A DNA stretch of 64,000 nt from Ianthella basta. Lineage: Eukaryota; Porifera; Demospongiae; Verongiida; Ianthellidae. The notes beneath the pieces were generated by a model that was given only the letters and a program-made list of their open reading frames with translations, was not told where the DNA came from and ran no database searches. The translations under genes were made by a program, and so were the position numbers. This document shows positions 35,350 to 64,000 of this stretch, one piece after another. The stretch lies in assembly GCA_964019415.1 (NCBI GenBank), contig OZ025888.1:4040536-4104535 (forward strand), read 5' to 3'. Within the stretch, counting starts at the first letter, position 1. The number at the start of each line of letters is the position of its first letter.

Positions 35350-37066
35350 ATGCTTAAACTACAGCTAAGATTCTTTGTGATCTTCCTCCCACTGTGGGCT
35401 CTGGCTGCATCGGCCAGTGAGAGCAGCTGTATGAACAGCTACCTGGACTTTGAGGAGCAGACCTTTGGCAACAACAGTGAGAACAGGCTAAAGCTCCACA
35501 AAGCTTTCTATTCTCCCAATCATCACTTGCCATACTCAGTGGTAGTGACCTACCAGGCTGTGCTTCCCAATGGAACTAGAGTCAACATATCCACCGATCC
35601 CACCTGCCCTGATGAACAAGTGTGGCTGTGGCTGTCTTCTCCCGATTTACTATTTAACAACCCAATGCATTTCAATTGCCTAGCCCTGTATACCCTTAAC
35701 CACTTCACTGAGTGGGTTCCCCCACATCTTATCATTACAACACCCCTACCTTGTCCTGCCAAGGCTGAAGGATTCCTCACACTAATGACCTCTTCAGTAA
35801 GTTCTGTCAGTAGAACAGCTTCTCTAATAATACCAACTCTTGTTCCTTCTGTACACATTATGTAGCTCAAATGTTACATCCTCATCTATCCAGCTCCAGG
35901 CCTATGCTGTAGGTGATCATTTGAAGGGAAAGCAACTGGGGTATTCTCGCCAAGGCTGTGCCATGGACATATTCAATTGTTCTCTAAAGGATGTAAGCCC
36001 ACCATGTATATTTATTGCATTGTTAGCATTACTAGAGTTTTTGTTCCAAGTATGTTTTTATGTGTAGTATCTGTTGTACTGCATCAAGTACTTCTTAAGG
36101 TTCTTTCACCAAAATTGGAGGCTGATGGCCACTCTTTTGCGTACTATGGGACGTTTTGGGGACTGTCAGCCATCCTTTGTATGGTCCTTGTACCATTGGT
36201 GTACATAGAGTGTGATACGTAGATATACTGCATTACATGCAGTAGGTCACTCACCAGAAAAGGCATTATGTATATGCCTGGTCAGTTGTCTTTCTTTTCC
36301 CATTATATTGTGTACTCCTGTGGCCACTTACTGTGGTGTCAAGTTCACCGCTCATTCTGTCTACCTTCTTCCCACTAAGCTCCTCTGCTGCTGCAATGAG
36401 AAGCATGCTGGAGCATTGGTCACTTCACTGACCCTTTGGTTTGACTTAGTAGTATCTGTTTTCCTTGTTTTCATGTTGTTTTTCATTGCATTGCATTTCC
36501 AGTGGCCACTCCATCTTTCTACCTCCTTCCTGCTAAACTCCTCTGTTGCGACAATGAGAAACGTGCCAGATAATTTGTTACTTCACTGACCCTTTGGTTT
36601 GACTTGGTTGCTGCCCATTACATTGTTGCTATTGGTGCTTTTATTCTGTTTGCATTTCCTGTGGCACCATTTGCTGTTGCTGTGAATGTGATGCTGCTTG
36701 TGCTGACTTTCATGTGTCTCACTTACATTATGGTGTTGGTCTTTGCCCATAATTATGTGCATCACTTGGTACTCGAAAGTGTCTCAGGAGCAATGCTGAC
36801 TGCTGTGCTACAGTTCATGCTGCAATGTTGTTCCCTCTCCTGCTACGTAGTTATCATCTGTTTCGTGTTCATAACAGTGTTTACATCTTTCTTAAATCTC
36901 TCTATGCTCCTGTCCTTTGACTGCCTTAAGCTTGGGTTTAAAGAAGTTTGTTTCTGTGTGGATGCACTGGTCACCTAATGGTGTGGAGCATGATAATGCA
37001 GTCAATCCACTACATGGACATGTGTACAACAGTTTCCCAGCCATAGATAATGTGGTAGTGCACTAA
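35350..37066 (+). pseudogene. Receptor-like array copy 1, decayed
   Basis: Exon 1 (35350-35796, 149 codons) is fully open with signal peptide MLKLQLRFFVIFLPLWALA, the family Cys residues and glycosylation sites. The donor is normal and the intron is 97 nt. Exon 2 starts at 35894 (LQAYAVGDHLKGKQLGY) but shifts frame in TM1 and stops at about 36065-36067. Later homologous pieces lie in different frames. The LLP-K-LLCCC-EK region occurs twice, near 36358-36450 and 36500-36620, and the second carries a TAA. Homology ends at DNVVVH-stop (37066). The open exon could still yield a secreted ectodomain fragment. Confidence 0.85.
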
Positions 37067-37945
37067 TTGTCTACTCAACAGAAGAATAGGACCAATAGTG
37101 TTTCTACAGTTTCTCTTATAATTGCATACTGTGCACATAAGGTAGTACGTTTTCTTTAATACGCAGCCTAGTGAGGTTTCAAGTTAAGTATACATAGTTA
37201 TTAGATTGGTTACTGAAACTGCACAAATGTATCTTGTATTGCATTTTATTATCTTATGACAGTGCAGTGGTTCTGTGTTTCCAACTCATTTGAATGGGCT
37301 ATGCTGAGTAAGCATAACAGGCCTGCAGGGACCACTAATTCATTCCTAATATTGGGACATGTGATGCAGGTTGCGTGGCTGCTATGGATGCTAGAGAAGT
37401 CTTAATAGTTGTGTAGTAGTTTAGGAGCAATTACTTTTCACATTTGGAGCAAAAGTTTTAAACTGAAAGTGGCTGTAATGCTTCGTTTGCTTGTGTACCA
37501 GTATGCTTTGTCTGTGGCTTCTTCGTATTCAGTAGCAGTGCACTGTATAATAATAGTTGCTGCATGCAACAACACGTAGCTTAGTACACAACTGAGCATC
37601 TGTGTAGCCATGCTACATGTAAGTATTCTGCATCCAAATGAGGTCTACTTTTACAATTAATGAAACTTTCCCTAGCATTTTATTTTATCAGCTTGCAGTA
37701 GGTCAGGTACCACACAGCACTGTGGTAACAGTGCTGTGTGGTAACAGGTGGGGCTACAGCAGCTATTAAGGCATGGAATCAGCAGTCAGTGTACTGCGTT
37801 ACATTTTAGTTTAGGTCAGTTTCGTTCTCAGACCTGTAATTTATTTTAATTTCCTGTTTTATATTATTGCATCAGTTTCATTGTTCCAATAAGTAAGCAT
37901 AATCTTATAAAGCTGCTGTGCCTTCAGTACTGTAACTCTGTAAGA
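37067..37945. other. Spacer between array copies 1 and 2
   Basis: AT-rich sequence without a supportable gene. A perfect hairpin with 15-bp arms (TACCACACAGCACTG and its complement) and a 6-nt loop lies at 37708-37743. The last part is the 5' flank of copy 2. Confidence 0.5.
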
Positions 37946-39269
37946 ATGTGTGAGAATAAGCTGGTATTCTTTGTGCTTCTCATTCAACTGTCAACTCTGA
38001 CAATCTCAGATGACAGTAGCAGTTGTGTAGGCAGCTATCTGGACTTTGAGGAGCAGACATTTGGCAACAACAGTGAGAACAGGCTAAAGCTGTATGAAGC
38101 TTTCTATCCTCCCAATGATCACTTGCCATACTCAGTGGTAGTGACCTACCAGGCTGTGCTTCCCAATGGAACTAGAGTCAACATATCCACCGATCCCACC
38201 TGCCCTGACAAACAAGTGTGGCTGTGGCTGTCTTCTCCCATTTTACTCATGTTGGAGCCTACTCAATTGAATCGCTTAGTTCTGTATACCCTCAACTACT
38301 TCACTGAGTGGGTCCCCCCACACCTTCTGATTACCATTCCTATACCCTGTTCTTCCAAGACTGAAGGATTCTTCGCACTAATGACCCCTTCAGTAAGCAG
38401 TGCGCATGGCATCAGTTTTGCTGCTCCAACTTCTCCTCAAGTCTCTCTCACAGAAAATGGACACTTGTAGGTACTCCTTTGATCAGTATGGGATATTCTG
38501 GGGAATGTCAGCCGTCCTTTTCATAGTCCTAATTCTGTTCTTGTACACAGCTATCACACACTTGTCACTTTTTACTTTCAATTCTGATAACCAACAGACA
38601 GCGTATATCAGGTACAGTATGCCACTTGTCTTCGCCTTCCCCATTGTATTCTGTGCACCTGTGGCCATTTATTTTGGGATCAAGTTTAAGTTTACAACTC
38701 CATCTGTCTACCTCCTTCCTGCTAAACTCCTCTGCTGCTGCAATGAAAAGCGTGCTCGAATATTGGCAACTTCTCTAGCCCTTTGGTTGGACCTGGTGGC
38801 TGCCCAGCATGCTATTGGTTTTGGTTTGTTGGTATTATATATATTTGTTATAGCACCATTTGTTGTTGCTGTGAATGTGATGCTGCTTGTGCTGACTTTC
38901 ATGTGTCTCACTTACATCATGGCATTAGTCTTTACAATGTGTGCATCACTTGGTACCCGAAAGTGTCTCAGGAGCAATGCCGACTGCTGTGCTACAGTTC
39001 GTGCTGCAATGCTGATCCCTCTCCTGCTGGCTATCATCTGTTTTGGCTCTACAATTACTCTAAGTGGTCAGTTTGTCAATACTGCCACTCAACAGAACAG
39101 CTTCAGTGCCATTTTTAAATCCCTCTTCACTACTGTCCTTTTGGCTGCTGTGACCTTGAGTTTAAAGAGGTTCATTTCTGTCTGGCTTCACTGGCCGTCT
39201 GGAGATAGTGAGGGTGGCAATGCTGTTTATGTAAGGGCCATAGATGCAGTAGTGGACTATGTGCACTAG
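37946..39269 (+). CDS. Receptor-like array copy 2, internally deleted but in frame
   Basis: Exon 1 (37946-38392, 149 codons) encodes signal peptide MCENKLVFFVLLIQLSTLT and the full ectodomain. The segment that in other copies holds the end of intron 1, the juxtamembrane LQAYAVG block and TM1 is gone. The normal donor at 38393 is now followed after 61 nt by CTCTCTCACAG, a coding stretch in other copies that here makes a good acceptor. Splicing to 38454-39269 restores frame and gives 420 aa with TM2-TM7 but no TM1. Without splicing the product would be a 174-aa secreted ectodomain. Whether it works is unknown; loss of TM1 should alter topology. Confidence 0.75.
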
Positions 39270-39300
39270 CTCTCTGCAGTACGTACAGTTGGCTGGCATA

Positions 39301-39462
39301 GTAACTCATCAGATTTGTTTACTAGACTGTTTTCGAGTGTATTGTATGGTATTTTCTGAACTGTTTTTAATGGATTTCCTAGTAACTCATCAGATTTGTT
39401 TACTAGACTGTTTTCGAGTGTATTGTATGGTATTTTCTGAACTGTTTTTAATGGATTTCCTA
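39301..39462 (+). repeat. 81-bp tandem duplication in copy 2 3' flank
   Basis: GTAACTCATCAGATTTG...GGATTTCCTA is present twice head to tail with a period of 81 bp. The 3' flanks of the relics at 43.4 and 48.1 kb carry one copy, so the duplication is local and recent. Confidence 0.85.
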
Positions 39463-39785
39463 ATACATGGTGTTTGTTGTACTATTTTGCATATTGTGTA
39501 GTGTTTACAGAACTGTTTTCTAACATATTCTTATTGTGTGGTGTTAGTTTCCTAATAACTGTGCGTTTCTTTTTTCTATATTCGTCATTGGCTTATTTGA
39601 AACTGGTGCAAGTGTGCACTGTAGCTGCAGCACTGTTCTTCTGTAATGGGAAAGTCATGAAAGTTCTACAGGGCAGCCCCCAGTGGTTGTTAGGAAGGCA
39701 GTTGCTCCTGTACTTTTGATTGCACCGCCTCTAGTACGTATACATGTTAGTAGCGTGTACAGCTCGCACTGCATTGCGTGTGTTT

Positions 39786-40004
39786 AGGGTTAGGGTTGGC
39801 TTTCAATTTCTTCTGTTGTGTACATCTGTTCTGATGTGTGGATAATTTCTGTTAGGAGTGACGTAATTGGTAAAGTGAAACACACGTTGTTTCACCTTAA
39901 AAAGCAACAGACTTAGTGTAGTTTATATAAATTCATGTTAAGTAGCAAACCAACATATGTACCAGTACTGTAACTTGCATCAAACTGCCAACAACTCTTT
40001 GAAG
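39786..40004 (+). promoter_or_regulatory. Putative promoter of array copy 3
   Basis: A block shared with copy 4 contains TGACGTAA (CRE/ATF-like), an 11-bp-arm hairpin AAAGTGAAACA-CACGT-TGTTTCACCTT at 39872-39898 (one mismatch), and a TATA-like GTTTATATAA at 39921-39930, about 75 bp before the ATG. Confidence 0.5.
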
Positions 40005-41610
40005 ATGCTGAACGTACAGATAACATTCTTTGTGTTTCTTTTTACGCTGTCGGCTCTGGGTTCATCAGGCAATGAAATCAGCTGTGTAAACAACTACCTG
40101 GACTTTGAGGAGCAGACATTTGTCAACAACAGTGAGAACAGGCTAAAGCTGTACCAAGCTTTCTATCCTCCCAATGATCACTTGCCATACTCAGTGGTAG
40201 TGACCTACCAGGCTGTGCTTCCCAATGGAACTAGAGTCAACATCACTACTGATACCAGCTGCCCTGATGGGCAGCTATGGCTATGGCTGTCTTCTCCTGT
40301 TTCACTGTTTGATGACCCCACAGAATTGAATCGCCTAGCCCTGTATACCCTCAACTACTTCACTGAGTGGGTTCCCCCACATCTTATCATTACAACACCC
40401 CTACCTTGTCCTGCCAATGCTGAAGGATTCCTCACACTAATGACCTCTTCAGTAAGTTCTGTCAGTAGAACAGCTTCTCTAATATTACCAACTCTTGTTT
40501 CTTCTGTCCACATTATGTAACTCAATTGTTACATCCTCATCCACCCAGCTCCGGGCCTATGCTGTAGGTGATCAATTGAAGGGAAAGCAACTGGGGTATT
40601 CTCGCCAAGGCTGTGGTATGAACGTGTCCAGTTCTTTTCTAAAGGATGTAAGCTCAGCCATGCCCATTTATCGTATTGTCTTTGTTGCTGGCTTCCTGTT
40701 TATGGCTATTTCTATATGTACAGCATCTGTGGTACTGCTCCCAATCCTCCTTAAGTCCGTTTCACAGAAAATGGAGGTTCATGGCCTCTCCTTTGACTAT
40801 TACGGTATCTTCTGGGGACTGTCAACTATTCTTTTCCTGGTATTTGCATTGCTCCTGTATAGAGATGCAACACTCATATCTATGGACTTCACTACTGACT
40901 TTTATCATAAAAGGTATTACAAGTATTTCTTTCCATTTGTCTTTGCTTTCTTTGGCGTATTTTGCACTCCTGTTGCCATTTACATTGGTGTTAAGTTTAC
41001 ATTTACCACTCCATCTGTCTACCTCCTTCCTGCTAAACTCCTCTGTTGCTGCAGTGAGAAACATGCTCGAATATTGGTTACTTCACTGACTCTTTGGTTC
41101 AACTTGGCTGCATCTGTTTTCCTTCTCGGACATGGTCTCATCACCTTGTTTGCATTCACAATGGAACCATTTGTTGTTGCTGTGAATGTGATGCTGCTTG
41201 TGCTGGCTTTCATGTGTCTCACTTACATCATGGCATTGGTCTTTACAATGTGTGCATCACACGGTACTCAAAAGTGTCTCAGGAGCAATGCCGACTGCTG
41301 TGCTACAGTTCGTGCTGCAATGTTGATCCCGTTCCTGCTGGCTATCATCTGTTTCGTGCTCATGGCTGCATTGAGTGGTCAGTTTGTCAATAATGCCACT
41401 CAGCCAAACAGTTTGTACGCCAATATTAAGTCTCTATTCACTCCTATCTTTCTGGCTGCTGCGAGCTTCGGTTTAAAAAGGTTAATTTCTGTGTGGCTAC
41501 ACTGGTCACCAGGCAATGTTGATGGTGGTCATGCAGTCTATCCAGTACATGGAAGGATGTATAATGGATACCAAGCCATGGATAATGTGGTAATAGAGTG
41601 TGAGGAGTAA
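40005..41610 (+). CDS. Receptor-like array copy 3, intact seven-TM-type membrane protein of unknown family
   Basis: Exons 40005-40451 and 40549-41610, 97-nt phase-0 intron, 502 aa. Signal peptide MLNVQITFFVFLFTLSALG is followed by an ectodomain of about 165 residues with Cys 27, 86, 135 and 171 and sequons N41, N74, N79 and N174. Hydrophobic segments lie near 192-217, 235-253, 276-298, 326-353, 356-384, 405-428 and 444-467; the last is weak because of an internal Lys-Arg. Loop TM3-TM4 carries LLCCCSEKHAR and loop TM5-TM6 carries KCLRSNADCCATVR. Loop TM6-TM7 carries sequon N431. The tail ends GRMYNGYQAMDNVV plus acidic residues, with a YxxM sorting-type motif. Sequons fall on predicted outside segments and Cys clusters inside, as for an N-out receptor. 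No known GPCR or channel motif was recognised; function unknown. Confidence 0.85.
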
Positions 41611-42978: not shown

Positions 42979-43390
42979 GACTCTCTGCCTTACTTACATA
43001 ATGGCATTGGTATTTGCTGTGCGCGCTACTATTAACACCCAATAATGTCTCAGGAGCAATGCTGACTGCTGTGCTACAGTTCGTGCTGCAATGCTGATCC
43101 CTCTCCTGCTGGCTATCTTCTGTTTCAGCTCTACAATTGCTTTAAGTGGTCAGTTTGTCAATACTGCCACTCAACAGAACAGCTTTAATGCCATTTTAAG
43201 ATTCCTCGTCACTACTATTCCTTTAGCTGCTGTGACCTTAAAGAAGAAAGAAAGTTTAAAGAAGTTCAATTCGTCAGGCTTCACTGGCCACCTGGAGATA
43301 GTGGGGGTGGTAATGCTGTTGACCTACGAGTCATAGATAATGCAGTAATGGACCAGCTCCCTGCAGTACCTACTGTTCTATAAGCTGGTA
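42979..43390 (+). pseudogene. C-terminal relic of a copy-2-like gene
   Basis: Begins at CTTACTTACATAATGGCATTGG (TM5), continues through CLRSNADCCATVR, TM6 and SGQFVNTATQQNSF, and decays in TM7 (43240-43330). NTATQQNSF and the following 3' flank match copy 2, not copies 3/4, so a second gene type once stood in each repeat unit. There is no insertion at the site used by the foldback element in the 47-kb relic. Confidence 0.8.
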
Positions 43391-43793
43391 TAGTAACAAT
43401 TCAGACTTGTCACTAGACTGTTTTTAAGTGTATTGTGTGGTATTTTCTAATGCGCTGTTAATGAATTTCCTAATACATGGTGTTTGTTGTACTATTTTGC
43501 ATATTGTGTAGTGTTTACAAAACTGTTTTCTAACATTATTCTTGTTATGTCGTGTTCAATTCCTAATAAATCTTTGTTTGTTTTTTTCTATATCTGTCAT
43601 TAGCTTTATTTAAAACTGGTGCAAGTGTGCACTGTAACCGCAGCACTGTTCTTCTGTAAAGGGAAACTTTTGAAAGTTCCACAGGGCAGCCCCCAGAGGT
43701 TGTTAGGAAGACAATTGCTACTGTACTTTTGATTGCACTGCCTCTAGTACATATACATGTTAGTAGCGTGTACAGCTTGAACAGCATTGCGTG

Positions 43794-44011
43794 TGTTTAG
43801 GGTTAGGGTTGGCTTTCAATTTCTTCTGTTGTGTACATCTGTCCTGGAGTGTGGATAATTTCTGTTAGGAGTGACGTAATTGGTAAGGTGAAACACACGT
43901 TGTTTCACCTTAAACAGCAACAGACTTAGCGAAGTTTATATAACCTCATGTTTGTAGCACACCTACATACGTACCTGTAACTTGCATCAAACTGCCGACA
44001 ACTCTATGAAG
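43794..44011 (+). promoter_or_regulatory. Putative promoter of array copy 4
   Basis: Same block as before copy 3: TGACGTAA, a perfect 11-bp-arm hairpin AAGGTGAAACA-CACGT-TGTTTCACCTT at 43885-43911, and GTTTATATAA at 43934-43943, about 70 bp upstream of the start codon. Confidence 0.5.
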
Positions 44012-45617
44012 ATGCTGAACATACAGATGACATTCTTTGTGTTTATCATTCCGCTGTCGGCCCTGGCTTCATCAGGCAATGAAATCAGCTGTGTAGACAA
44101 CTACCTGGACTTTGAGGAACAGACCTTTGGCAACAACAGTGAGAACAGGCTAAAGCTGTATGAAGCTTTCTATCCTCCCAATGATCACTTGCCATACTCA
44201 GTGGTAGTGACCTACCAGGCTGTGCTTCCCAATGGAACTAGAGTCAACATCACTACTGATACCAGCTGCTCTGATGGACAGCTATGGCTATGGCTGTCTT
44301 CTTCCATTTCACTAATTAATGACCCCACAGAAATGAATCGCCTAGCCCTGTATACCCTCAACTACTTCACTGAGTGGGTTCCCCCACATCTTATCATTAC
44401 AACACCCCTACCTTGTCCTGCCAATGCTGAAGGATTCCTCACACTAATGACCTCTTCAGTAAGTTCTGTCAGTAGAACAGCTTCTCTAATATTACCAACT
44501 CTTGTTTCTTCTGTCCACATTATGTAACTCAATTGTTACATTCTCATCCACCCAGCTCCAGGCCTATGCTGTAGGTGTTCAGTTGAAGGGAAAGCAACTG
44601 GGGTATTCTCGCCAAGGCTGTGGTATGAACATGTCTAGTTCTTTTCTAAAGGATGTAAGCTCCGCCATTTCCATTTCTCGCATTGCCTTCTATGCTGGCT
44701 TACTGTTTATGACTATTTCTATATGTACAGTATCTGTGGTACTGCTCCCAGCCCTCCTTAAGCTCCTTTCACAGAAAATGGAGGTTGATGGCCACTCCTT
44801 TGACTATTACGGTATCTTCTGGGGACTGTCAACTATTCTTTTCCTGGTATTTGCATTGCTTCTGTATAGAGATATGACACTCCTATATATGGACTTCACT
44901 ACCGACTTTTATCATAAAAAGTATTACAAGTATTTCTTTCCATTTGTCTTTGCTTTCCTTGGCGTTTTTTGCACTCCTGTTGCCATTTACATTGGTGTTA
45001 AGTTTGTATTTACCACTCCATCTGTCTACCTCCTTCCTGCTAAACTCCTCTGTTGCTGCAGTGAGAAACATGCTCGAATATTGGTTACTACACTGACTCT
45101 TTGGTTCAACTTGGCTGCATCTGTTTTCCTTCTCGGACATGGTCTCATCATCTTGTTTTCATTCACAATGGAACCATTTGTTGTTGCTGTGAATGCGATG
45201 CTGCTTGTGCTGGCTTTCATGTGTCTCACTTACATCATGGCATTGGTCTTTACAATGTGTGCATCACACGGTACTCAAAAGTGTCTCAGGAGCAATGCCA
45301 ACTGCTGTGCTACAGTTCGTGCTGCAATGCTGATCCCGTTCCTGCTGGCCATCATCTGTTTCGTGCTCATGGCTGTATTGAGTGGTCAGTTTGTCAATAA
45401 TGCCACTCAGCCAAACAGTTTGTACGCCAATATTAAGTCCTTGTTCACTCCTGTCTTTCTGGCGGCTGCAAGCTTTGGTTTAAGGAGGTTAATTTCTGTG
45501 TGGCTACACTGGTCACCAGGCAATGTTGATGGTGGTCATGCAGTCAATCCAGTACATGGAAGGATGTACAATGGATACCAAGCCATGGATAACGTGGTAA
45601 TAGAGTGTGAGGAGTAA
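44012..45617 (+). CDS. Receptor-like array copy 4, intact
   Basis: Exons 44012-44458 and 44556-45617, 97-nt intron, 502 aa. Closest to copy 3 in signal peptide (MLNIQMTFFVFIIPLSALA), promoter and C-terminus, differing by scattered substitutions such as TSCSDGQ for TSCPDGQ, SSSISLINDPTEM in the distal ectodomain and SNANCC for SNADCC. The start MLNIQ was chosen by alignment with other copies; a Met two codons upstream is also possible. All family Cys residues, sequons, membrane segments and the YQAM tail are retained. Confidence 0.85.
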
Positions 45618-47012: not shown

Positions 47013-48090
47013 CTCTCTGCCTTACTTACATAATGACATTGGTCTTTACTGTGTGCGCTACTATTAACACCCAATAATGTCTCAGGAGCAATGCCGACTG
47101 CTGTGCTACAGTTCGTGCTGCAATGCTGATCCCTCTCCTGTGGCCGTCTTCTGTTTCAGCTGTACAATTACTTCAAGTGATCAGTTTGTCAGTACTTCCA
47201 CTCATCAGAACAGCTTTAGTGCCATTTTAAGATTCCTCTTCACTACTATTCTTTTAGCTGCTGTGACCTTGGTTTGCAGAAGTTCAATAGACCAGTTGCG
47301 TATAAGTGTAATGCAGTACGTCATAATTGCATATGACGTCATCACTGGTGGCAGTGAAAGATAGGCAAAAAGATGTTGCACCGGCAGCCTCGAGCACTTC
47401 GTGCCGAATGTTCCATTTAGATGGCCCGGCTGAATGGTTCACACGAACGCACCTGACGGTCGTTGATTGAGGTTGATACGGCCTACAGTCGCAGAGATGG
47501 AGACTCGTGATGGGGGACTCGCCGGCGAGAATGTGGCGAACGAGTCTTCTCGACAGGATTTTTCGTTTTTTTTTACACTCCTAGACACAGAGTAGCTTCC
47601 AGTTGAACTACCTCTTACAGAGTATCAAGGTTAGCTACATGTAGCGATGGTAACGCAAGGGTGCTGGTCATAGCCTTATTAGCCGTTGCTCGCCGGTTAG
47701 TCCCACTCCAGACGTCTCCATCTCGGTGCCTGCTGTGGTGCTTTCGCCGAAATCGTGTCAAGAAGTCTCGTTCACCACATTCTGGTCGCTCATGTCGGCG
47801 AACCCCCCTTCACGAGTATCGATCTTGGCAACCGTAGGCCTTAGCAACTTCAATCAACGACCTGCAGGTGCGCATTCGTGCGAACGATTCAGCCGGGCCA
47901 TCTAAATGGGAACATTCGGCACGAAGCGCTCTAGGCTGCCGACAACACCTTTTGTCTATCTTTCAATGTATTGAAGTGCCACCATTGATGACGTCATATG
48001 CTATACCCGTAATTGGTCTATCCTGTCAGGCTTCACTGGTCACCTGGAGATAGTAGGGATGGTAATGCTATTGACCTAAGATTATGTAGT
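47013..48090 (+). pseudogene. C-terminal relic of a copy-2-like gene, split by a foldback element
   Basis: The relic runs from the TM5 region (CTTACTTACATAATG) through CATVR, TM6 and TM7 until about 47286. It is interrupted by an inverted-repeat element and resumes at about 48022 with CTGTCAGGCTTCACTGG, the homologue of the codons for the post-TM7 sequence. Confidence 0.75.
47287..48021. mobile_element. Foldback/MITE element with inverted repeats of about 200 bp
   Basis: Ends ATAGACCA and TGGTCTAT; a TA target site is possible. Arms share CATATGACGTCATCA, GAAAGATAG, CTTCGTGCCGAATGTTC, ATTTAGATGGCCCGGCTGAA and GTCGTTGATTGA in opposite orientation, roughly 80% alike. The centre is GC-rich and shows no open frame of note. 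A shrunken derivative sits at the same gene position at 59601-59702, while the relic at 43 kb has the empty site. Confidence 0.8.
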
Positions 48091-48367: not shown

Positions 48368-49974
48368 ATGCTTGAGACTAAATGGGGATTTTTTGTGCTT
48401 CTCCTTCAACTATCAACTCTCACATTCTCAGTTGGCAGTAACACTTGCGTGGACAACTACCTGGACTTTGAGGAACAGACCTTTGTCAACAACAGTGAGA
48501 ACAGGCTAAAGCTGTATGAAGCTTTCTATCCTCCCAATGATCACTTGCCATATTCAGTGGTAGTGACCTACCAGGCTGTGCTTCCCAATGGAACTAGAGT
48601 CAACATCACTACTGATACCAGCTGCCCTGATGGGCAGCTATGGCTATGGCTGTCTTCTCCTGTTTCACTGCTTAATGACCCCTCAGAATTGAATCGCCTA
48701 GCCCTGTATACCCTCAACCACTTCACTGAGTGGGTTCCCCCACATCTTATCATCACAACACCCCTACCTTGTTCTGCCAAGGCTGAAGGATTCCTCACAC
48801 TAATGACCACTTCAGTAAGTTCTGTCAGTAGAACAGCTTCTCTAATATTACCCACTCTTGTTCCTTCTGTACACATTGTGTAACTCACTCGTTACATCCT
48901 CATCCACCCAGCTCCGGGCCTATGCTGTAGGTGATCAATTGAAGGGAAAGCAACTGGGGTATTCTCGCCAAGGCTGTGGTATGAACAAGTCCAGTTCTTT
49001 TCTAAAGGATGTCAGCTCAGCTGTGCACATTTCTCGCATTGTCTTCGTTGCTGGCTTACTGTTCATGGCTATTTCTATATGTACAGCTTCTGTTATACTG
49101 CTCCCAGTTCTCTTTAAGTCCATTTCGCAGAAAATGGAGGTTGATGGCCATTCCTTTGACTATTACGGTATCTTCTGGGGACTGTCAGCCATTCTTTTCC
49201 TGGTATTTGCATTGCTCCTATATAGAGATGTGACACTCATATCTATGGATTTCACTACCGACTTTTATCATAAAAAGTATTACAAGTATATCTGGCCTAT
49301 TGGCTTTGCTTTCCTTGGCGTATTTTTCACTCCTGTTGCCATTTACATTGGTGTTAAATTTGTATTTACCACTCCATCTGTCTACCTCCTTCCTGCTAAA
49401 CTCCTCTTGCTGCTGCAGTGAGAAACATGCTCGAATATTGGTTACTACACTGACTCTTTGGTTCAACTTGGCTGCATCTGTTTTCCTTCTCGGACATGGT
49501 CTCATCATCTTGTTTGCATTCACAATGGCACCATTTGTTGTTGCTGTCAATGTGATGCTGCTTGTGCTGACTTTCATGTGTCTCACGTACATCATGGCAT
49601 TGGTCTTTACATTGTGTGCATCACTTGGTACTCGAAAGTGTCTTAGGAGCAATGCTGACTGCTGTGCTACAGTTCGTGCTGCATTGTTGATCCCGTTCCT
49701 GCTGGCTATCATCTGTTTCGTGCTCATGGCTGCATTGAGTGGTCAGTTTGTCAATAATGCCACTCAGCCAAACAGTTTTAACTCTATTATTAAGTCCCTG
49801 TTCACTCCTGTCTTCCTGGCTGCTGCGAGTTTTGGTTTAAAGAGGTTAATTTCTGTGTGGCTACACTGGTCACCAGGCAATGTTGATGGTGGTCATGCAG
49901 TCAATCCAGTACATGGAAGGATGTACAATGGATACCAAGCCATGGATAATGTGGTAATAGAGTGTGAGGAGTAA
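48368..49974 (+). pseudogene. Receptor-like array copy 5, single-base frameshift
   Basis: Exon 1 48368-48814 (MLETKWGFFVLLLQLST...) and exon 2 from 48912. Exon 2 is 1,063 nt where intact copies have 1,062. The extra base lies at about 49405-49416, where TGTTGCTGC became TTGCTGCTGC in the LLCCC codons, and translation stops at 49419-49421. The rest is intact in the next frame to ECEE-stop. The truncated product would be about 318 aa, ending after TM3. A sequencing or assembly slip in this GCT-repeat-like tract cannot be excluded; if so, this is a 502-aa intact gene. Confidence 0.8.
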
Positions 49975-51919: not shown

Positions 51920-53533
51920 ATGCTCAAGATTAAACCGAGATTCTTTGTACTTCTCCTTCAGCTGTTAACTCTGACATTCTCGGATGACAGTAGCAGTTGT
52001 GTAGACAACTATCTGGACTTTGAGGAGCAGACATTTGGCAACAACAGTGAGAACAGGCTAAAGCTGTATGAAGCCTTCTATCCTCCCAATGATCACTTGC
52101 CATATTCAGTGGTAGTGACCTACCAGGCTGTGCTTCCCAATGGAACTAGAGTCAATATCACTACTGATTCCTCCTGCCACAACAGACAAGTGTGGCTGTG
52201 GCTGTCTTCTCCGATACTACTCTTAACAGAACCAACAGAATTGAATCGCTTAACCCTGTATACCCTCAACCATTTCACTGAGTGGGTTCCCCCACACCTT
52301 ATTATTACAACTCCACTACCTTGTTCTGACAAGACTGAAGGATTTCTCACACTAATGACTTCTTCAGTAAGTGGTAGAAGAATTTTACAGATTGTGTCTC
52401 ATAAACACAAAACACCTTTGTCTGCAGTGCACTACAGTTCACATTGTTACTATTCCCTGTCTACACAGTTACAGACATATGCTTTGGAAGAGATGTCAAA
52501 TGGAGAGCACTTGGGATATTCCAGCCAAGGGTGCACCACAAACACGGCTATTGTTTCTTTAATAGATGAAAGTTCTAATTTTCACATTTATCGCATCTTC
52601 GGTGCTGTTGGATTTACCTTTTTGGTTATATTTCAATCCATGGCATATGCTGTACTGCTCCAAGTACTGTTCGAGTCTCTTTCTCAGAAAATGGACACTT
52701 GTAGTTACTCCTTTGATTATTACGGGATATTCTGGGGAATGTCAGCCATCTTCTGTCTGTTCCTAATCGTGATCCTGTGCAGAGCTACCACGCACATGTC
52801 ACTTGTCACCTTCAACCCTGGTATCCAGCAAGCAGAACACATCAGATATTTCTGGCCAGTTAACCAAGCTTTCTCCATGATAATGTGTGCACCTGTGGCC
52901 ATATACTTTGGGATCAAGTTTAGGTTTGCCACTCCATCTGTCTACCTCCTTCCTGCTAAACTCCTCTGCTGCTGCAGTGAGAAACGTGCTGGAATATTGG
53001 TTACTTCACTGACCCTTTGGTGTGACTTGGTTGCTGCCCATTACTTTGTTGGCATTGGTACTTTTGTTCTGTATGCATTTCCTGTGGCACCATTTGTTGT
53101 TGCTGTGAATGTGATGCTGCTTGTGCTGACTTTGATGTGTCTCACTTACATCATGGCATTGGTCTTTACCATTTGTGCATCACTTGGTACCCGAAAGTGT
53201 CTCAGGAGCAATGCTGACTGCTGTGCTACAGTTCGTGCTGCAATGCTGATCCCTCTCCTGCTGGCTATCATCTGTTTCAGCTCTACTTTTGCTTTAAGTA
53301 GCCAGCTTGTCAATACGTCCACTCAGCAGAATAGTTTTCACATGTTTCTTAAGTCACTGTTTGCTCCAGTCCTTCTGGCTGTCTTGGGCTTGGGTTTAAA
53401 GAGGTTCATTTCTGTCTGGATGCACTGGTCACCTGCTGATGTCGATGGTGATATTGCAGTCAATCCACTACATGGACATGTGTATGATGGATACCAAGCC
53501 ATTGATAATGTGGTGCTGAACCTTATGCATTAA
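51920..53533 (+). CDS. Receptor-like array copy 6, intact, divergent type
   Basis: Exons 51920-52366 and 52469-53533; 503 aa when spliced. Signal peptide MLKIKPRFFVLLLQLLTLT. The intron is 102 nt with no stop in frame, so retention would add 34 residues between ectodomain and TM1 (537 aa in total). The type differs from copies 3/4/5/7/8 in the juxtamembrane region (LQTYALEEMSNGEHLGYSS), in QKMDTCSYSF after TM1, in the TM2-TM3 loop (CRATTHMSLVTFNPG), in ASSQLVNTSTQQ-like loop 6-7 and in the tail (YDGYQAIDNVVLNLMH). It resembles copy 2 and copy 9. Cys clusters and the YxxI tail motif are kept. Confidence 0.85.
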   Translation: MLKIKPRFFVLLLQLLTLTFSDDSSSCVDNYLDFEEQTFGNNSENRLKLYEAFYPPNDHLPYSVVVTYQAVLPNGTRVNITTDSSCHNRQVWLWLSSPILLLTEPTELNRLTLYTLNHFTEWVPPHLIITTPLPCSDKTEGFLTLMTSSVSGRRILQIVSHKHKTPLSAVHYSSHCYYSLSTQLQTYALEEMSNGEHLGYSSQGCTTNTAIVSLIDESSNFHIYRIFGAVGFTFLVIFQSMAYAVLLQVLFESLSQKMDTCSYSFDYYGIFWGMSAIFCLFLIVILCRATTHMSLVTFNPGIQQAEHIRYFWPVNQAFSMIMCAPVAIYFGIKFRFATPSVYLLPAKLLCCCSEKRAGILVTSLTLWCDLVAAHYFVGIGTFVLYAFPVAPFVVAVNVMLLVLTLMCLTYIMALVFTICASLGTRKCLRSNADCCATVRAAMLIPLLLAIICFSSTFALSSQLVNTSTQQNSFHMFLKSLFAPVLLAVLGLGLKRFISVWMHWSPADVDGDIAVNPLHGHVYDGYQAIDNVVLNLMH

Positions 53534-54400: not shown

Positions 54401-54431
<31 letters not shown>

Positions 54432-54460
54432 GTTAGTCACACATGCATGGAGTGTGGATT

Positions 54461-54838
54461 TTAGTTGCTAAATAAAAGAGATTGCCTATGGGTGTACATC
54501 TTGGTAAGTATGTTTGCAATGGAATGGTCATAGGAGCTTAGAATGAAATGTAATTTGCTTGTGATCGGCTGTTGAAGGAATGTGCATGATAGTGAGTTAC
54601 ATTGATTGAAAAGCTGCAATCTGAATTGGTTGAAAGCGGGGCAAATAATTAAGAAGTGAATCTGGTCCTCCACCTTCCCACGATCACACAACCTACAAGA
54701 CCGCTGGCAGAGGGGACCCCAGTGCAGCGGCCAGTCTCCACCGCGAGCATGAGGCAACCCACCCGGAGACCCCTCCAGCACCCTCCTCACCCCTACTGAC
54801 CTAATATTGGCTACATATCTCTCTGTGGTTGGGAAACC
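54461..54838 (-). mobile_element. Non-LTR retrotransposon C-terminal fragment
   Basis: Minus-strand open sequence with ERYVANIRSVGVRRVLEG and a CX2CX9HX4C knuckle (CRLCDRG...HFLIIC followed by PAF), typical of the C-terminal end of LINE-type reverse transcriptase proteins. It is 5'-truncated and short, so not autonomous. The inserted segment spans about 54312-54885, includes a poly-G run at 54415-54432, and splits an array promoter from its gene relic. Confidence 0.7.
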
Positions 54839-54964
54839 TGCCTTTGTCCTTCTATAGATATTTATCCTACCTCCTGTTTCCTCCTGTTTTATATAACCTC
54901 ATGTTTGTAGCAAACCTACATACGTACCTGTAACTTGCATCAAACTGCCAACAACTCTATGAAG

Positions 54965-55254
54965 ATGCTCAACATACAGATGACATTTTTTATGTTTCTC
55001 TATTGCTGTTGACCCTGGCTTCGTCAGGCAATAAAATCAGTTGTGTAAACAGCTACCTAGAGTACAAGTACTGTTACTGTATAACATGGCCACAATGGCA
55101 CTTGCTCATTTATGAAATGAAGGCCAGAAAAGAGCTACGTATCTGAATGGATGTCTTATTACTTGCTCATTGCAATTTGAGTAATAATTTGATTATTTGA
55201 ATTTGTTAATGTACTGACCCTTTGGTTTATCTTGATTGCTGGCCATTACATTGT
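54965..55254 (+). pseudogene. Fragmentary receptor-like gene relic
   Basis: ATGCTCAACATACAGATGAC followed by a stop, then codons for SSGN-ISCVN-YLE, match the first 35 codons of copies 3/4. A second scrap at 55211-55254 matches the SLTLWF-L-A-HYIV region of TM4. The rest is deleted. Confidence 0.75.
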
Positions 55255-56512: not shown

Positions 56513-56591
56513 CAGTGGGTGAGTACATAGGTGAGGCTACACAGTACTAGTAGTTTGTGTGGTACACTGTTGTGTCAGTCACTTGGCCAGA

Positions 56592-58188
56592 ATGCTTGAG
56601 ACTAAATTGGGATTTTTTGTGCTTCTCCTTCAACTATCAACTCACACGTTCTCAGCTGACAATAACAGTTGTGTGGACAACTACCTGGACTTTGAGGAGC
56701 AGACCTTTGACAACAACAGTGAGAACAGGCTAAAGCTGTATGAAGCTTTCTATCCTCCCAATGATCACTTGCCATACTCAGTGGTAGTGACCTACCAGGC
56801 TGTGCTTTCCAATGGAACTAGAGTCAACATCACTACTGATACCAGCTGCCCTGATGGGCAGCTATGGCTATGGCTTTCTTCTCCTGTTTCACTGCTTAAT
56901 GACCCCACAGAATTGAATCGCTTATCCCTGTATACCCTCAACCACTTCACTGAGTGGGTTCCCCCACATCTTATCATTGCAACACCCCTACCTTGTCCTG
57001 CCAAGGCTGAAGGATTCCTCACACTAATGACCACTTCAGTAAGTTCTGTCAGTAGAACAGCTTCTCTAATAATGCCAACTCTTGTTTCTACTGTACACAT
57101 TACGTAACTCAAATGTTACATCCTCATCCACCCAGCTCCAGGCCTATGCTGTAGGTGATCAATTGAAGGGAAAGCAACTGGGGTATTCTCGTCAAGGCTG
57201 TGGTATGAACATGTCCAGTTCTTTTCTAAAGGATGTAAGCTCAGCCATTCCCATTTCTCGCATTGTCTTCTATTCCGGCTTATTGTTTATGGCTATTTCT
57301 ATATGTACAGCATCTGCTGTACTGCTCCCAGTCCTCCTTAAGTCCATTTCGCAGAAAATGGAGGTTGATGGCCACTCCTTTGAATATTACGGTATCTTCT
57401 GGGGACTGTCAGCCATTCTTTTCCTGGTATTTGCATTGATCCTGTATGGAGATGCAACAAGCATAACTATGGTCTTCACTACCGACTTTTATCATAAAAA
57501 GTATTACAAGTATTTCTGGCCTTTTGCCTTTGCTTTCCTTGGCGTATTTTGCACTTCTATTGCCATTTACATTGGTGTTAAGTTTACATTTACCACTCCA
57601 TCTGTCTACCTCCTTCCTGCTAAACTCCTCTGTTGCTGCAGTGAGAAACATGCTCAAATATTAGTTATTTCACTGACTCTTTGGTTCAACTTGGCTGCAT
57701 CTGTTTTACTTCTCGGACATGGTTTCGTCATCTTGTTTGCATTCACAATGGCACCATTTGCTGTTGCTGTGAATGTGATGCTGCTTGTGCTAACTTTCAT
57801 GTGTCTCACTTACATCATGGCATTGGTCTTTACAATGTGTGCATCACTTGGTACTCGAAAGTGTCTCAGGAGCAATGCCGACTGCTGTGCTACAGTTCGT
57901 GTTGATCCCGTTCCTGCTGGCTATCATCTGTTTCGTACTCACGGCTGCATTGAGTGGTCAGTTTGTCAATAATGCCACTCAACCAAACAGTTTTAACTCT
58001 ATTATTAAGTCCCTGTTCACTCCTGTCTTCCTGGCTGCTATGAGTTTTGGTTTAAAGAGGTTAATTTCTGTGTGGCTACACTGGTCACCAGGCAATGTTG
58101 ATGGTGGTAATGCAGTCAATCCACTACATGGAAGGATGTACAATGGATACCAAGCCATGAATAATGTGGTATAGAGTGTGAGGAGTAA
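56592..58188 (+). pseudogene. Receptor-like array copy 7, 8-nt deletion
   Basis: Exon 1 56592-57038 (MLETKLGFFVLLLQLST...) and exon 2 from 57136. At about 57900 eight bases are missing from the codons for RAAM (TTCGTGTTGATCC where others have GCTGCAAT inserted), shifting frame before TM6 with a stop at 57970-57972; product about 427 aa. A second 1-nt deletion near 58170 alters the tail. Exon 2 is 1,053 nt, nine fewer than copies 3/4. The ectodomain and TM1-TM5 remain open, so a truncated five-TM protein could be made. Confidence 0.8.
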
Positions 58189-59470
58189 CCTTTTACAGTA
58201 CATGTTTTGCGCATTTGGGTTCTTTGAATGGAATGTTAAGTTGAAGTGTTTTTCCAGCGTTTTCCATTTTGTATGGGATCTCGTTCCAAGTAGAACCTAC
58301 AATTACATTCTATACAGTTTTTGTAAGCTGCATACCTTTTAACTGTGTAAATATGACTACTTTAGCTTGGTATTGACAGTTCATAGCAGGTAGTGTGGTT
58401 TGAGCAATTTCTGTACTTGTAAATGTTTTCAGTTTAATTGAATGGGCTTTGATGACTAGGCATGTAATGCTCGGATATGCTTGCACAGATTTGCACATAT
58501 TCACTATACGTACATACTGATGTACACTGAGATGGTAGAACTGCATGCTGGACAATGCAGTGCATCAGATTGCTTGTGTCTGGATCTCCCAGAGCAGTCA
58601 TCCTTTGCATTAGGAGCCACATTTTACATTAAGCTTACCATGTACTCCGAATGTTCAATTGTGTGCCCTATCGTTGTGTTGACTCTTTGATGAAATGGCT
58701 AATGCCCAATATGAGGTGAATTTCCTACTTGCCACTGTTCATAAACACTGATTTTGTATTGATTGAAGCTGCTGACTAAGGCAAGTATGTATTTGCTTCT
58801 TATTCAAATTCTGCAGCTATCATAAATTGATTTGTGTGGTAGCTTGCATACTGTGCACACATCATTCATTCTGAATTAACATGTGCATCATGCAGGTGTC
58901 TGATTTGTTGTGCATATCTTGATGTACTGAATACCAGTTATCAAATTGGTGCACATGTGGCTACTCACCCCCTAGAACAGTACAGATTCCTATGAGTCCT
59001 GCAGTGTTTATGTTACGTACTGTCTGTGTTGTGTTCCTGGTTAGGGCATATCACAGACTGACCTGTGTGGTGTTTTATCCTTTGTACAGTCTGTTTGTGT
59101 GTTTGTGTGTTTGGAGAGATATAGCTATGATGTCATGCTATCAAAAGAATTAGCACATGTTGCAGTATTATGATGTAATACGTACTTTCCCTCACATGCT
59201 GGGCTTTTGTTGGATGTCTGTACACAATTCTGTTTTGGCCTTTCTTACAATGGTAGTGAAATGTTATGATAGTATGGCTGACTGCCAAACACTAAGAACT
59301 AGATCCAAAGTAGACACAGCTACTAGTAAACACCACATATTCCCATGTATGTATGTGTTCCCATGTATTTTGGGTCTGACTCATTACACTTTGGCAACAA
59401 CTTTGATAGTCGTACACTGTCAAAGCTGTGCAGTAAAACATTAGATTGCTACAGCTATCAAGGGACTGTC
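58189..59470 (+). repeat. Array spacer repeat, copy following gene 7
   Basis: Collinear with the spacers after genes 3 and 4. It lacks the 0.6-kb insertion and has a short deletion where TTTCATCACAGTGTTGTGTG is expected, near 59150. Confidence 0.8.
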
Positions 59471-59770
59471 AGCTGTACAATTGCTTTAAGTGATCAGCTT
59501 GTCAATACTGCCACTCAACAGAACAGCTTTAGTGCCATTTTAAGATTCCTCTTCGCTACCACTCTTTTAGCTGCTGTGACCTTGGGTTTTTCGGAAGTTC
59601 CATAGACCAATCTTTTAATGTATTGAAGTGCCACCAGTGATGACATCATATGCAATATTGCCTTAACCACAACATTCCTGAGTTACCCGCAACTGGTCTA
59701 TTCTGTCAAGCTTCACTAGCCACCTGGAGATAGTGGAGGTGGTAATGCTGTTGACCTTAAGAGTCTCAGA
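59471..59770 (+). pseudogene. C-terminal relic of a copy-2-like gene with shrunken foldback element
   Basis: The relic covers only the TM6-TM7 loop and TM7 (LVNTATQQNSFSAILRF...) up to about 59600. A 100-bp deletion derivative of the 47-kb foldback element follows (ATAGACCA ... TGGTCTAT, 59601-59702), then the gene relic resumes with TCTGTCAAGCTTCACT. Confidence 0.75.
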
Positions 59771-60040
59771 CGATGTAGCAATGGACTGTGTGCACCAGCT
59801 CCCTGCAGTACCTACTGTTCTATAAACTGGTATAGTAACAATTCAGACTTGCTACTAGACTGTTTTCAAGTGTATTGGGTGGTATTTTCTAATGCGTTTT
59901 AATGGATTTCCTAATACATGATGTTTGTTTGGTCTATTCATTTCTTTCATTTTCATATTTCCAGTGGGTGAGTACACAGGTGAGGCCACACAGTACTGGT
60001 AGTTTGTGTGGTACACTGTTGTGTCAGTCACTTGGCCAGA

Positions 60041-61643
60041 ATGCTTGAGACTAAATTGGGATTTTTTGTGCTTCTCCTTCAACTATCAACTCTCATGTTC
60101 TCAGTTGGCAGTAGCAGTTGTGTGGACAACTACTTGGACTTTGAGGAGCAGACCTTTGGCAACAACAGTGAGAACAGGCTAAAGCTGTATGAAGCTTTCT
60201 ATCCTCCCAATGATCACTTGCCATATTCAGTGGTAGTGACCTACCAGGCTGTGCTTCCCAATGGAACTAGAGTCAACATCACTACTGATACCAGCTGCCC
60301 TAATGGACAGCTATGGCTATGGCTTTCTTCTCCTGTTTCACTGCTTAATGACCCCACAGAAATGAATCGCCTAGCCCTGTATACCCTCAACTACTTCACT
60401 GAGTGGGTTCCCCCACATCTTATCATTACAACACCCCTACCTTGTCCTGCCAAGGCTGAAGGATTCCTCACACAAATGACCTCATCAGTAAGTTCTGTCA
60501 GTAGAACAGATTCTCTAATAATACTAACTCTTGTTCCTTCTGTACACATTACGTAACTCAAATGTTACATTTTCATCCACCCAGCTCCAGGCCTATGCTG
60601 TAGGTGATCAATTGAAGGGAAAGCAGCTGGGGTATTCCCGCCAAGGCTGTGGTATGGACATATCCAATTCTTATCTAAAGGATGTAAGCTCAGCCATTCC
60701 CATTTCTCGCATTGCCTTCTATGCTGGCTTACTGTTTATGACTATTTCTATATGTGCAGCATCTGTGGTACTGCTCCCAGTCCTCCTTAAGCTCCTTTCA
60801 CAGAAAATGGAGGTTGATGGCCACTCCTTTGACTATTATGGTATCTTCTGGGGACTGTCAGCCATTCTGTTCTTGGTATTTGTATTGCTCCTGTATAGAG
60901 ATGTGACAATCATATCTATGGACTTCACTACCGACTTTTATCATAAAAAGTATTACAAGTATTTCTTTCCATTTGTCTTTGCTTTCTTTGGCGTATTTTG
61001 CACTCCTGTTGCCATTTACTTTGGTGTTAAGTTTGTATTTCCTACTCCATCTGTCTACCTCTTTCCTGCTAAACTCCTCTGTTGCTGCAATGAGAAACAT
61101 GCTCGAATATTGGTTACTTCACTGACTCTTTGGTTCAACTTGGCTGCATCTGTTTTCCTTCTCGGTCACGGTTTCATCACCTTGTTTGCATTCACAATGG
61201 CACCATTTGTTGTTGCTGTGAATGTGATGCTGCTTGTGCTGGCTTTCATGTGTCTCACTTACATCATGGCATTGGTCTTTACAATGTGTGCATCACTTGG
61301 TACTCGAAAGTGTTTCAGGAGCAATGCTGACTGCTGTGCTACAGTTCGTGCTGCAATGTTGATTCCATTCCTGCTGGCTATCATCTGTTTCGTGCTCATG
61401 GGTGCATTGAGTGGTCAGTTTGTTAATAATGCCACTCAGCCAAACAGTTTTAACTCTATTATTAAGTCTCTATTCACTCCTGTCTTTCTGGCTGCTGCAA
61501 GCTTTGGTTTAAGGAGGTTAATTTCTGTGTGGCTACACTGGTCACCAGGCAATGTTGATGGTAATGCAGTCAATCCACTACATGGAAGGATGTACAATGG
61601 ATACCAAGCCATAGATAATGTGGTAATAGTGTGTGACGAGTAA
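60041..61643 (+). CDS. Receptor-like array copy 8, intact
   Basis: Exons 60041-60487 and 60585-61643, 97-nt intron, 501 aa. MLETK-type signal peptide as in copies 5 and 7, of which it is the only intact member. Differences include SCPNGQ in the ectodomain, NSYLKDVSSA before TM1, PTPSVYLFPAKLLCCCNEK after TM3, GNVDGNAV (one residue shorter) and a tail ending YQAIDNVVIVCDE. Family Cys residues and sequons are retained. Confidence 0.85.
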
Positions 61644-63533
61644 CCTTTTACAATACATGCTATGCACATTTGGGTTCTTTGAATAGGTTTGTTTAGTTGA
61701 AGTGTTTTTCCATATTGTATGGGATCTCTTTCCAAGTAGAACCTACAATTGCTTTCTATACAGTGTTTGTAAGCTGCATACCTTTTAACTATGTAAATAT
61801 GGCTACTTCAGCTTTGTTTGACAGTTCATAGCAGGTAATGTGGTTTGAGCAATTTCTGTACTTGTAAATGTTTTCAGTTTAATTGAATGGGCTTTGATGA
61901 CTAGGCATGTAATGCTCGGATATGCTTGCACAGATTTGCACATATTCACTATATGTACATACTGATGTACACTGAGATGGTAGAACTGCATGCTGGACAA
62001 TGCAGTGCATCAGATTGCTTGTGTCTGGATCTCCCAGAGCAGTCATCCTTTGCATTATGAGCCACATTTACATTTAGCTTTCCATTAACAATGTACGTAC
62101 TCCGAATGTTCAATTGTGTGCCCTATCGTTGTGTTGACTCTTAGATGAAAAGGCTTATCCCCAATATGAGGTGAATTTCCTACTTGCCACTGTTCATAAA
62201 CACTGATTTTGTATTGATTGAAGCTGCTGACTAAGGCAAGTACGTATGTATTTGCTTCTTATTCAAACTCTGCAGCTATCATAAATTGATTTGTGTGGTA
62301 GCTTGCATACTGTGCACACATTCATTCTGAACATGTGCAACATGCGGGTGTCTGATTTGTTGTGCATATCTTGATGAACTGAATAGCAGTTATCAAATTG
62401 GTGCACATGTGGCTAATCACCCCCTAGAACAGTACAGATTCCTATGAGTCCTGCAGTGTTTATTGCCGAGGCAAGTAATTGTGATGAGTTGTCGTCCCCT
62501 GTTTGTATATATGTATGTATGTATATATGTATATCCGTCCCAGTCAACCTGAGACACCTAGATTGTGCAATAGCTTGGTGTTCTCTGCAGGCGCTCACGA
62601 CAACAAAACACTCTACTTGGCCACCATCAGCCACAGAACTGCTCAACACTCCGCTGCACCCTGCATTCAGATTGTTGTTAACATCGCCCATTGCTTCAGT
62701 GAGGGCTACACGCCTGTTGGCGATTCCGCCATATTGGCTGACGTCATTTGCCCGCGTGGCCGGGAACACTTTCACTGTTCTCTCGGGTGAAGCGATAACG
62801 CACACTGTGTTAGCACAGCTCAGACAGGCTTCCCTGCGCAGCTCCAAATATGTAGGTGTTGAAGGGTCTGTTGCCATCCAGTGCTTCGTCTGGCTTGCTA
62901 TCCTTTCTTTCTGCCAGCCAGTGAAAGCAGATTGCAGTTTTATTATTGCCCAAAATGTACTTGGGTCGAGTTACACTCATGCACTGTAATTCACTGAAGT
63001 AGCTAGCTACATACATTCAAGCGAGGCTGGTTGCCTCTTACATACTGTCTGTGTTGTCTCCCTGGTTAGGGCATATCACAGACTGACCTGTGTGGTGTTT
63101 TATCCTTTGTACAGTCTGTTTGTGTGTTTGTGTGTTTGGAGAGATATAGCTATGATGTCACACTATCAACAGAATTGTTTCATCACAGTGTTGTGTGTTA
63201 GCACGTGTTGCAGTATTATAATGTGATGTGTACTTTCCCTTACATGCTGGGCTTTTATTGGATGTCTGTACACAATTCTGTTTTGGCCTTTCTTACAATG
63301 ATAGTGAAATGTTATGAAACTATGGCTGACTGCCAGACCCTAAGCACTAGATCCAAAGTAGACACAGCTACTAGTAAACACCATGTATTCCCATGTACAT
63401 ATGTGTTCCCATGTATTTTGGGTCTGACTCATTACACTTTGGCAACAATGTTTGTTAGTCGTACACTGTCAAAGCAGTGCGGTATAACGTGGGATTGCTA
63501 CAGCTATCAAGGATTTATTACTAATGGAGAATT

Positions 63534-63564
<31 letters not shown>

Positions 63565-63703
63565 GGGCATTGACTCACTACTTGAATCAGTTATGATTTT
63601 GCCTTCAACCTGTGCATTTTCTCCCTTCCATTTTCCCGGTGGGTGATTTTGGAACAGTGCTAGCAATCTGTTTTGTACACTGTTATGTCACTCCATTGCT
63701 AGA
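61644..63703 (+). repeat. Array spacer repeat following gene 8, with 0.6-kb insertion
   Basis: Same spacer family, with the insertion at about 62461-63050 and a poly-G run of about 21 at 63548-63568. It parallels the interval between copies 5 and 6 in order and content, showing that the two-gene block was duplicated. Confidence 0.8.
62461..63050. mobile_element. Insertion of about 0.6 kb of unknown type, copy 2
   Basis: Same insertion point and nearly the same sequence as 50689-51285, with small deletions (the CGACAGGC near the start and several bases in the centre). It is a co-duplicated copy rather than an independent insertion. Confidence 0.6.
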
Positions 63704-64000
63704 ATGCTCAAGATTAAACCGAGATTCTTTGTACTTCTCCTTCAGCTGTTAACTCTGACATTCTCGGATGACAGTAGCAGTTGTGTAGACAACTATCTGG
63801 ACTTTGAGGAGCAGACCTTTGGCAACAACAGTGAGAACAGGCTAAAGCTGTATGAAGCTTTCTATCCTCCCAATGATCACTTGCCATACTCAGTGGTAGT
63901 GACCTACCAGGCTGTGCTTCCCAATGGAACTAGAGTCAATATCACTACTGATTCCTCCTGCCACAACAGACAAGTGTGGCTGTGGCTGTCTTCTCCGATA
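63704..64000 (+). CDS. Receptor-like array copy 9, partial (cut by window end)
   Basis: The first 99 codons of exon 1 are open to the window edge. They are almost identical to copy 6 (MLKIKPRFFVLLLQLLTLT, DSSCHNRQVWLWLSSP), as is the 5' flank. The array therefore continues beyond the window. Confidence 0.85.
   Translation, partial: MLKIKPRFFVLLLQLLTLTFSDDSSSCVDNYLDFEEQTFGNNSENRLKLYEAFYPPNDHLPYSVVVTYQAVLPNGTRVNITTDSSCHNRQVWLWLSSPI

Follow-up and report, generated by a model that had tools for sequence, protein, structure and literature searches.

Sponges sense and react without neurons and, to our knowledge, the receptors that they use for chemical cues are largely an open matter. The odorant and gustatory receptors of insects form large tandem repertoires of seven-helix proteins, distinct from G-protein-coupled receptors (GPCRs) and including broken copies; their N terminus lies inside the cell, and they carry neither a signal peptide nor an ectodomain. 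GOST-type proteins (Wntless, GPR107, and TMEM87A) constitute small, widespread families, in which a signal peptide and a disulfide-bonded luminal domain are followed by seven helices. Tandem clusters are widespread among chemoreceptor families (PMC11526382). The present analysis concerns a tandem array of two-exon genes in the demosponge Ianthella basta, located in a window of 64,000 nucleotides (C21:4040536-4104535, the whole stretch of DNA analysed), and the family to which they belong in the 209 Mb of genome searched. These genes may represent a lineage-specific, non-canonical seven-helix chemoreceptor-like family, shaped by tandem duplication, loss, and gene conversion, a reading put forward tentatively and with somewhat less than even confidence. 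The anatomy and evolution of the family were computed; its sensory role is a suggestion of about the same, tentative standing.

Nine exon-1 copies, starting at the first coordinate of each numbered copy below, were found by similarity search, all on the plus strand, together with exon-2 relics:

35350..37063, plus strand: copy 1, broken; exon 1 open (35350-35796), exon 2 with several stops and shifts
37946..39230, plus strand: copy 2, broken; exon 1 open (37946-38392), exon 2 traceable only from roughly residue 75 onwards
40005..41610, plus strand: copy 3, intact, 502 amino acids; exon 1 40005-40451, intron 40452-40548, exon 2 40549-41610
42983..43252, plus strand: exon-2 relic, similarity match
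44012..45617, plus strand: copy 4, intact, 502 amino acids; exon 1 44012-44458, exon 2 44556-45617
47015..47268, plus strand: exon-2 relic, similarity match
48368..49974, plus strand: copy 5, broken; exon 1 open, frame break in exon 2
51920..53533, plus strand: copy 6, intact, 503 amino acids; exon 1 51920-52366, intron 52367-52468 (in frame, stop-free), exon 2 52469-53533
56592..58174, plus strand: copy 7, broken; exon 1 open, frame break in exon 2
59483..59752, plus strand: weak exon-2 relic (E 1.9e-4)
60041..61643, plus strand: copy 8, intact, 501 amino acids; exon 1 60041-60487, exon 2 60585-61643
63704..64000, plus strand: copy 9, broken; cut by the window end, with a broken exon 2 beyond it

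Chance likeness is excluded, because a copy-1 query matches the other copies down to E 1e-139. Removal of the single intron leaves copies 3, 4, 6, and 8 with an uninterrupted frame between ATG and stop codon, and the breaks of copies 1, 2, 5, 7, and 9 are located in exon 2. The nine two-exon copies and relics that the initial annotation had described between 35350 and 64000 were recovered, as was their mixture of intact (four) and broken (five) members. The array does not stop at the window end but continues past 64000 to window-equivalent position 103899, with two further copies to 151850. It holds at least 20 copies; of the 20 modelled, 13 are intact, with introns of 64 to 716 bp beyond the window. 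In copies 6, 9, and 12, the short intron keeps the reading frame and contains no stop, and unspliced translation would be possible; for copy 6, a gene caller could report one 537-amino-acid exon.

Across the genome, a single exon-1 query yielded 158 candidates and, among these, 150 scored matches; such counts are lower bounds. A near-full, stop-free exon 1 (at least 110 of 149 amino acids) is present at 122 of the 150 matched places. Ectodomain exons form 24 clusters on 14 contigs when matches within 60 kb are joined, and two exon-2 queries, with matches as low as 20-30% identity, lead to these contigs as well. The family, therefore, has the large tandem clusters of intact and broken copies that would be expected of a chemoreceptor repertoire. 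Three exceptionally long open frames that coincide with family exons (1785, 1993, and 1919 amino acids) were set aside, the one inspected being a run of N.

Exon 1 counts 149 codons in the four intact window copies and encodes an apparent signal peptide (a hydrophobic N terminus recognised by eye) together with most of the ectodomain. Exon 2 (352-354 codons in these copies) supplies the remainder of the ectodomain, followed by seven hydrophobic segments and the tail. The intron is in phase 0, with a GTAAGT donor and a CAG acceptor, and measures 97, 97, 102, and 97 bp in copies 3, 4, 6, and 8, respectively. The same four copies share ectodomain cysteines 27, 86, 135, and 171, and N-glycosylation sequons at 41, 74, and 79. 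Cysteine positions 27, 86, and 135 and a W.W..SP motif are kept in all 18 proteins of the exon-1 alignment. The exon-2 invariants, wherever covered by 27 sequences (several of them partial), are W238, P305, P357, P449, the cysteine pair 316-317, and also C171. A YxxPhi tail motif occurs in 12 of 13 intact array copies, ten of these 12 carrying YQAM or YQAI. Strict acidic dileucines ([DE]xxxL[LI]) are found in three of four C10/C12 tails (5-8% expected from shuffles) and in copy 18; outside the array, five of ten tails were reached (L051-L054 and L065). Regulated endocytosis through such motifs would be plausible but is weakly supported.

AlphaFold modelling, resting on the sequences of one genome, gave for copy 6 (as a continuous frame) a mean predicted local distance difference test (pLDDT) of 72 and a predicted template modelling score (pTM) of 0.64, the helix blocks reaching mostly 84-96 and the ectodomain blocks 43-85. 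Exon 2 of a C10 member, only 30% identical to copy 6 in this exon, was modelled with a mean pLDDT of 77 and a pTM of 0.71, and the two models agree in their seven helices and in a short helix within loop 2. The charge pattern fits a predicted topology with the N terminus outside and the C terminus inside (N-out, C-in), as does a sequon after transmembrane helix (TM) 6 in 10 of 13 intact copies. This arrangement is the one expected of a GPCR. The signal peptide, the four-cysteine ectodomain with several sequons, and the seven or so membrane segments of the initial annotation are all consistent with these data; its short YxxM/I tail is seen, as YQAM or YQAI, in 10 of the 13 intact array copies.

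Variation within the membrane part was mapped using helix ends and a half-way inner/outer split taken from the copy-6 model (231 positions). Entropy is higher in the outer than in the inner TM halves, both in the family (2.19 vs 1.78, p 5e-6) and in the array (0.46 vs 0.25, p 2e-8), and the most variable parts are the outer halves of helices 1-4, along with extracellular loop 1. The ratio of non-synonymous to synonymous divergence (dN/dS) follows the same pattern, with 0.54-0.66 for outer TM halves and loops vs 0.36-0.42 for inner halves. Cytoplasmic loop 2, which holds the invariant cysteine pair, is the sole conserved cytoplasmic loop (entropy 1.36).

No known relative was identified by the searches performed. 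Six family sequences had no significant match in Pfam (7tm included), 12 exon-2 proteins had none in NCBIfam (best E 0.16), and the profiles of the two exons had none among PDB sequences (best E 0.56 and 1.7). At the fold level, Foldseek gave nothing significant in the PDB for the two AlphaFold models (best E 0.64 and 1.3), nor among viral folds (best E 0.51). This agrees with the initial annotation, which had recognised no receptor, channel, or transporter signature; profile and structure-prediction searches likewise returned no strong match to a well-described family. A bacterial origin (A1 peptide patterns in GTDB contigs) and a viral origin (A2 peptide patterns in IMG/VR) were considered and rejected, these pattern searches, which find close relatives only, having revealed no relative, and no viral fold matching significantly. 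The literature searched (including PMC4302439 and PMC11526382) yielded no description of this seven-helix family, which may be present in named sponges as uncharacterised database entries.

The main rival explanation is that each gene encodes a membrane protein for transport, for a channel, or for lipid handling, topped by a glycosylated cap, and that the family expanded to widen its range of substrates. The unmatched helix bundle and the invariant tryptophan, prolines, and cysteine pair of the membrane part would suit such a protein, as would the tyrosine and dileucine sorting motifs of the tails, which are also common on endolysosomal transporters. Nevertheless, no significant transporter match was obtained in Pfam, PDB sequences, or PDB folds, and more than 100 members with tandem turnover would be unusual for transporters, making this explanation unlikely.

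Divergent true GPCRs, having lost their recognisable motifs, could also account for seven predicted helices, an outer N terminus, sequons in the N-terminal domain, and more conserved inner halves. Some family clusters lie near class-A-like GPCR genes: three of 17 groups within 50 kb vs 0.27 expected (a post hoc comparison), and four of 17 within 100 kb vs 0.45 expected (matches at C7:8948094-8993476, C2:11382115, C9:2133940, and C12:6530665, by Pfam, several below the cut-off). This proximity adds little weight. No homology to the neighbouring class-A-like genes was seen, hhalign giving a probability of 0.1 between the family and two local class-A-like proteins (of two such neighbours, Pfam matches one), and of 100 in a comparison of two family profiles with shared members. 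Pfam detected no 7tm domain in the six family sequences, although it found all three GPCR classes in the same genome: class A (PF00001, 7tm_1; 35 rows, 21 over cut-off), class B/adhesion (PF00002, 7tm_2; at least 155 rows), and class C (PF00003, 7tm_3; 89 rows). No overlap between GPCR rows and family exons was seen by eye among the matches listed (at least 155 for PF00002). With models of moderate confidence, Foldseek matched GPCR chains only insignificantly, with TM-scores of 0.08-0.25 to those among the matches listed. Overall, GPCR identity appears improbable.

Regarding selection, regional dN/dS ranges from 0.31 to 0.57 (ratio of means, 78 pairs of intact copies), with 0.31 for the exon-1 ectodomain. 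dN exceeds dS in 18 of 78 pairs for the tail, six for the signal peptide, one for the juxtamembrane region, and none for the exon-1 ectodomain or the TM region. Judging from these sequences, the intact copies are under purifying selection. The identity of the mature exon-1 ectodomain exceeds that of exon 2 in 91 of 91 pairs (14 genes, some exons partial); purifying selection, therefore, acts on the ectodomain as well.

The array comprises two subfamilies, A (copies 3, 4, 8, 10, and 11) and B (copies 6, 12, and 14-18). Over the first 420 nucleotide columns of their alignment they are separated by 6 fixed differences, and over the other 1,098 by 115 (Fisher p 5e-11, calculated with 1,089 columns and treating sites as independent). 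Codon columns 361-400 contain none and constitute a second uniform tract. With copy 18 left out of B, the subfamilies are 94% identical over exon 1 nucleotides 121-240, while identity comes close to background in their introns (0.64, vs 0.57 after shuffling) and downstream flanks (0.64, vs 0.61 after shuffling). Identity at the four-fold sites of residues 41-80 is 0.91 among six genes of the array, vs 0.52, 0.38, and 0.56 between the array and other clusters. Codon-level constraint is disfavoured as the cause of this low synonymous divergence, because these sites are alike within the array and not between the array and other clusters; homogenisation of the ectodomain core within the array, as by gene conversion, would fit better. 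Some codon constraint is possible, the same block being the most alike in two between-cluster comparisons: C12 vs C10 (0.68 vs 0.49-0.65) and the array vs C6/C5/C3/C2 (0.56 vs 0.24-0.44).

These results bear on an immune or self-recognition role, one of those named in the initial annotation; in an allorecognition receptor of this kind, the ectodomain would bind self or non-self. While the turnover of intact and broken copies and the four-cysteine ectodomain with several sequons would accommodate it, such a role is not preferred, since conservation is strongest in the ectodomain: its identity, its scarcity of A/B differences, and its dN/dS all weigh against it, and in the array the domain is homogenised rather than diversified. 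Such a role is about as improbable as GPCR identity. A cell-adhesion or gamete-surface protein, whose conserved ectodomain would bind a fixed partner and whose more variable membrane part would only anchor and sort, is the least probable explanation, since an anchor would hardly require that seven helices, with invariant residues among them, persist at identities of 22-30%.

In the chemoreceptor-like reading, the proteins would be located at the cell surface, and the membrane bundle, rather than the ectodomain, would be the tuned part of a surface-sensor repertoire. The conserved ectodomain may serve as a shared module (for folding, as an oligomer, or as a lid), the variable outer half of the bundle may read water-borne cues, the more conserved inner half may relay the signal, and the tail (YxxPhi or acidic dileucine) may drive endocytosis. 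The copy mixture, which the initial annotation had likened to receptor families, and the purifying selection support this reading, the receptor role itself staying conjectural. Several points weigh against it. GPCR similarity is absent from the Pfam 7tm, Foldseek, and hhalign comparisons as scoped above. The ligand pocket is putative: the outer TM halves do vary more, but TM5 is contrary, its family entropy being no higher in the outer than in the inner half (1.57 vs 1.70), TM6 and TM7 show little difference, cytoplasmic loops 1 and 3 are variable family-wide (2.32 and 2.23), and extracellular loop 3 is not (1.71). As dN/dS is below 1 everywhere but in the small tail inside clade A (1.71), outer-half variability can also mean relaxed constraint. 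Sequons on predicted cytoplasmic stretches make two copies fit the topology less well (copies 16 and 17 at 300-302; copy 16 at 229), and YxxPhi is weak evidence, because 21-64% of shuffled intact-copy tails carry it.

It is doubtful, though conceivable, that a whole non-GPCR seven-helix chemoreceptor superfamily arose or expanded in sponges, with more than 100 genes in which gene conversion keeps the ectodomain uniform and the membrane pocket varies; if so, an animal without neurons would have evolved its own odorant-receptor-like repertoire. The more than 100 near-full ectodomain exons without a match in the models searched offer a direct candidate list for sponge chemical sensing, and the uniform ectodomain combined with a variable outer membrane half yields a testable prediction of the ligand site. 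Even a transporter or adhesion family would be a large membrane family nameless in the libraries searched.

Other features were observed. The window contains axonemal dynein heavy chain exons (12729-24200, plus strand; DHC_N2 and DYH2-5-8 coiled coil over cut-off, DHC_N1 sub-threshold), an aldo/keto reductase exon (3205-3987, minus strand; Pfam E 4.2e-33) with a long TG/CA repeat at its end, and a 145-amino-acid open frame (54461-54898, minus strand) with no Pfam match at E 0.01, whose CxxC..H..C pattern is reminiscent of the end of a long interspersed nuclear element (LINE) reverse-transcriptase open reading frame. Elsewhere, a stretch of about 257 kb (C12:4781447-5038004) with thirty near-full matches to 7tm_2 is a candidate adhesion-type GPCR array. 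The mitochondrial contig C96 (21.2 kb, of which 20 kb were read) also points to a demosponge: cox1 contains nine in-frame TGA codons, and atp9 is present along with nad, cox, atp, and cob genes and 20 predicted tRNAs. Compact mitochondrial DNA that combines atp9, code 4, and a nearly complete tRNA set typifies demosponges and not cnidarians.

Compared with known systems, the family resembles GPCRs of classes A, B/adhesion, and C in its seven predicted helices, outer N terminus, and clustered genes, but differs in lacking a significant sequence, profile, or fold match to them. GOST-type proteins resemble it in layout; none was among the PDB sequence or fold matches, obtained with a model whose ectodomain part, where a GOLD-type luminal domain would lie, is weak (pLDDT blocks 43-85). 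Large receptor-gene expansions are also reported in sponges for SRCR (PMC10855680) and NOD-like (PMC12909245) receptors, but known domains define those, while this family has no Pfam domain. Unlike insect odorant and gustatory receptors, the family is predicted N-out by its charge pattern and has an apparent signal peptide, with no Pfam match in the six sequences. The likeness lies in the large tandem repertoire, and, with no claim of GPCR identity, the family would by analogy function like an odorant-type seven-transmembrane repertoire.

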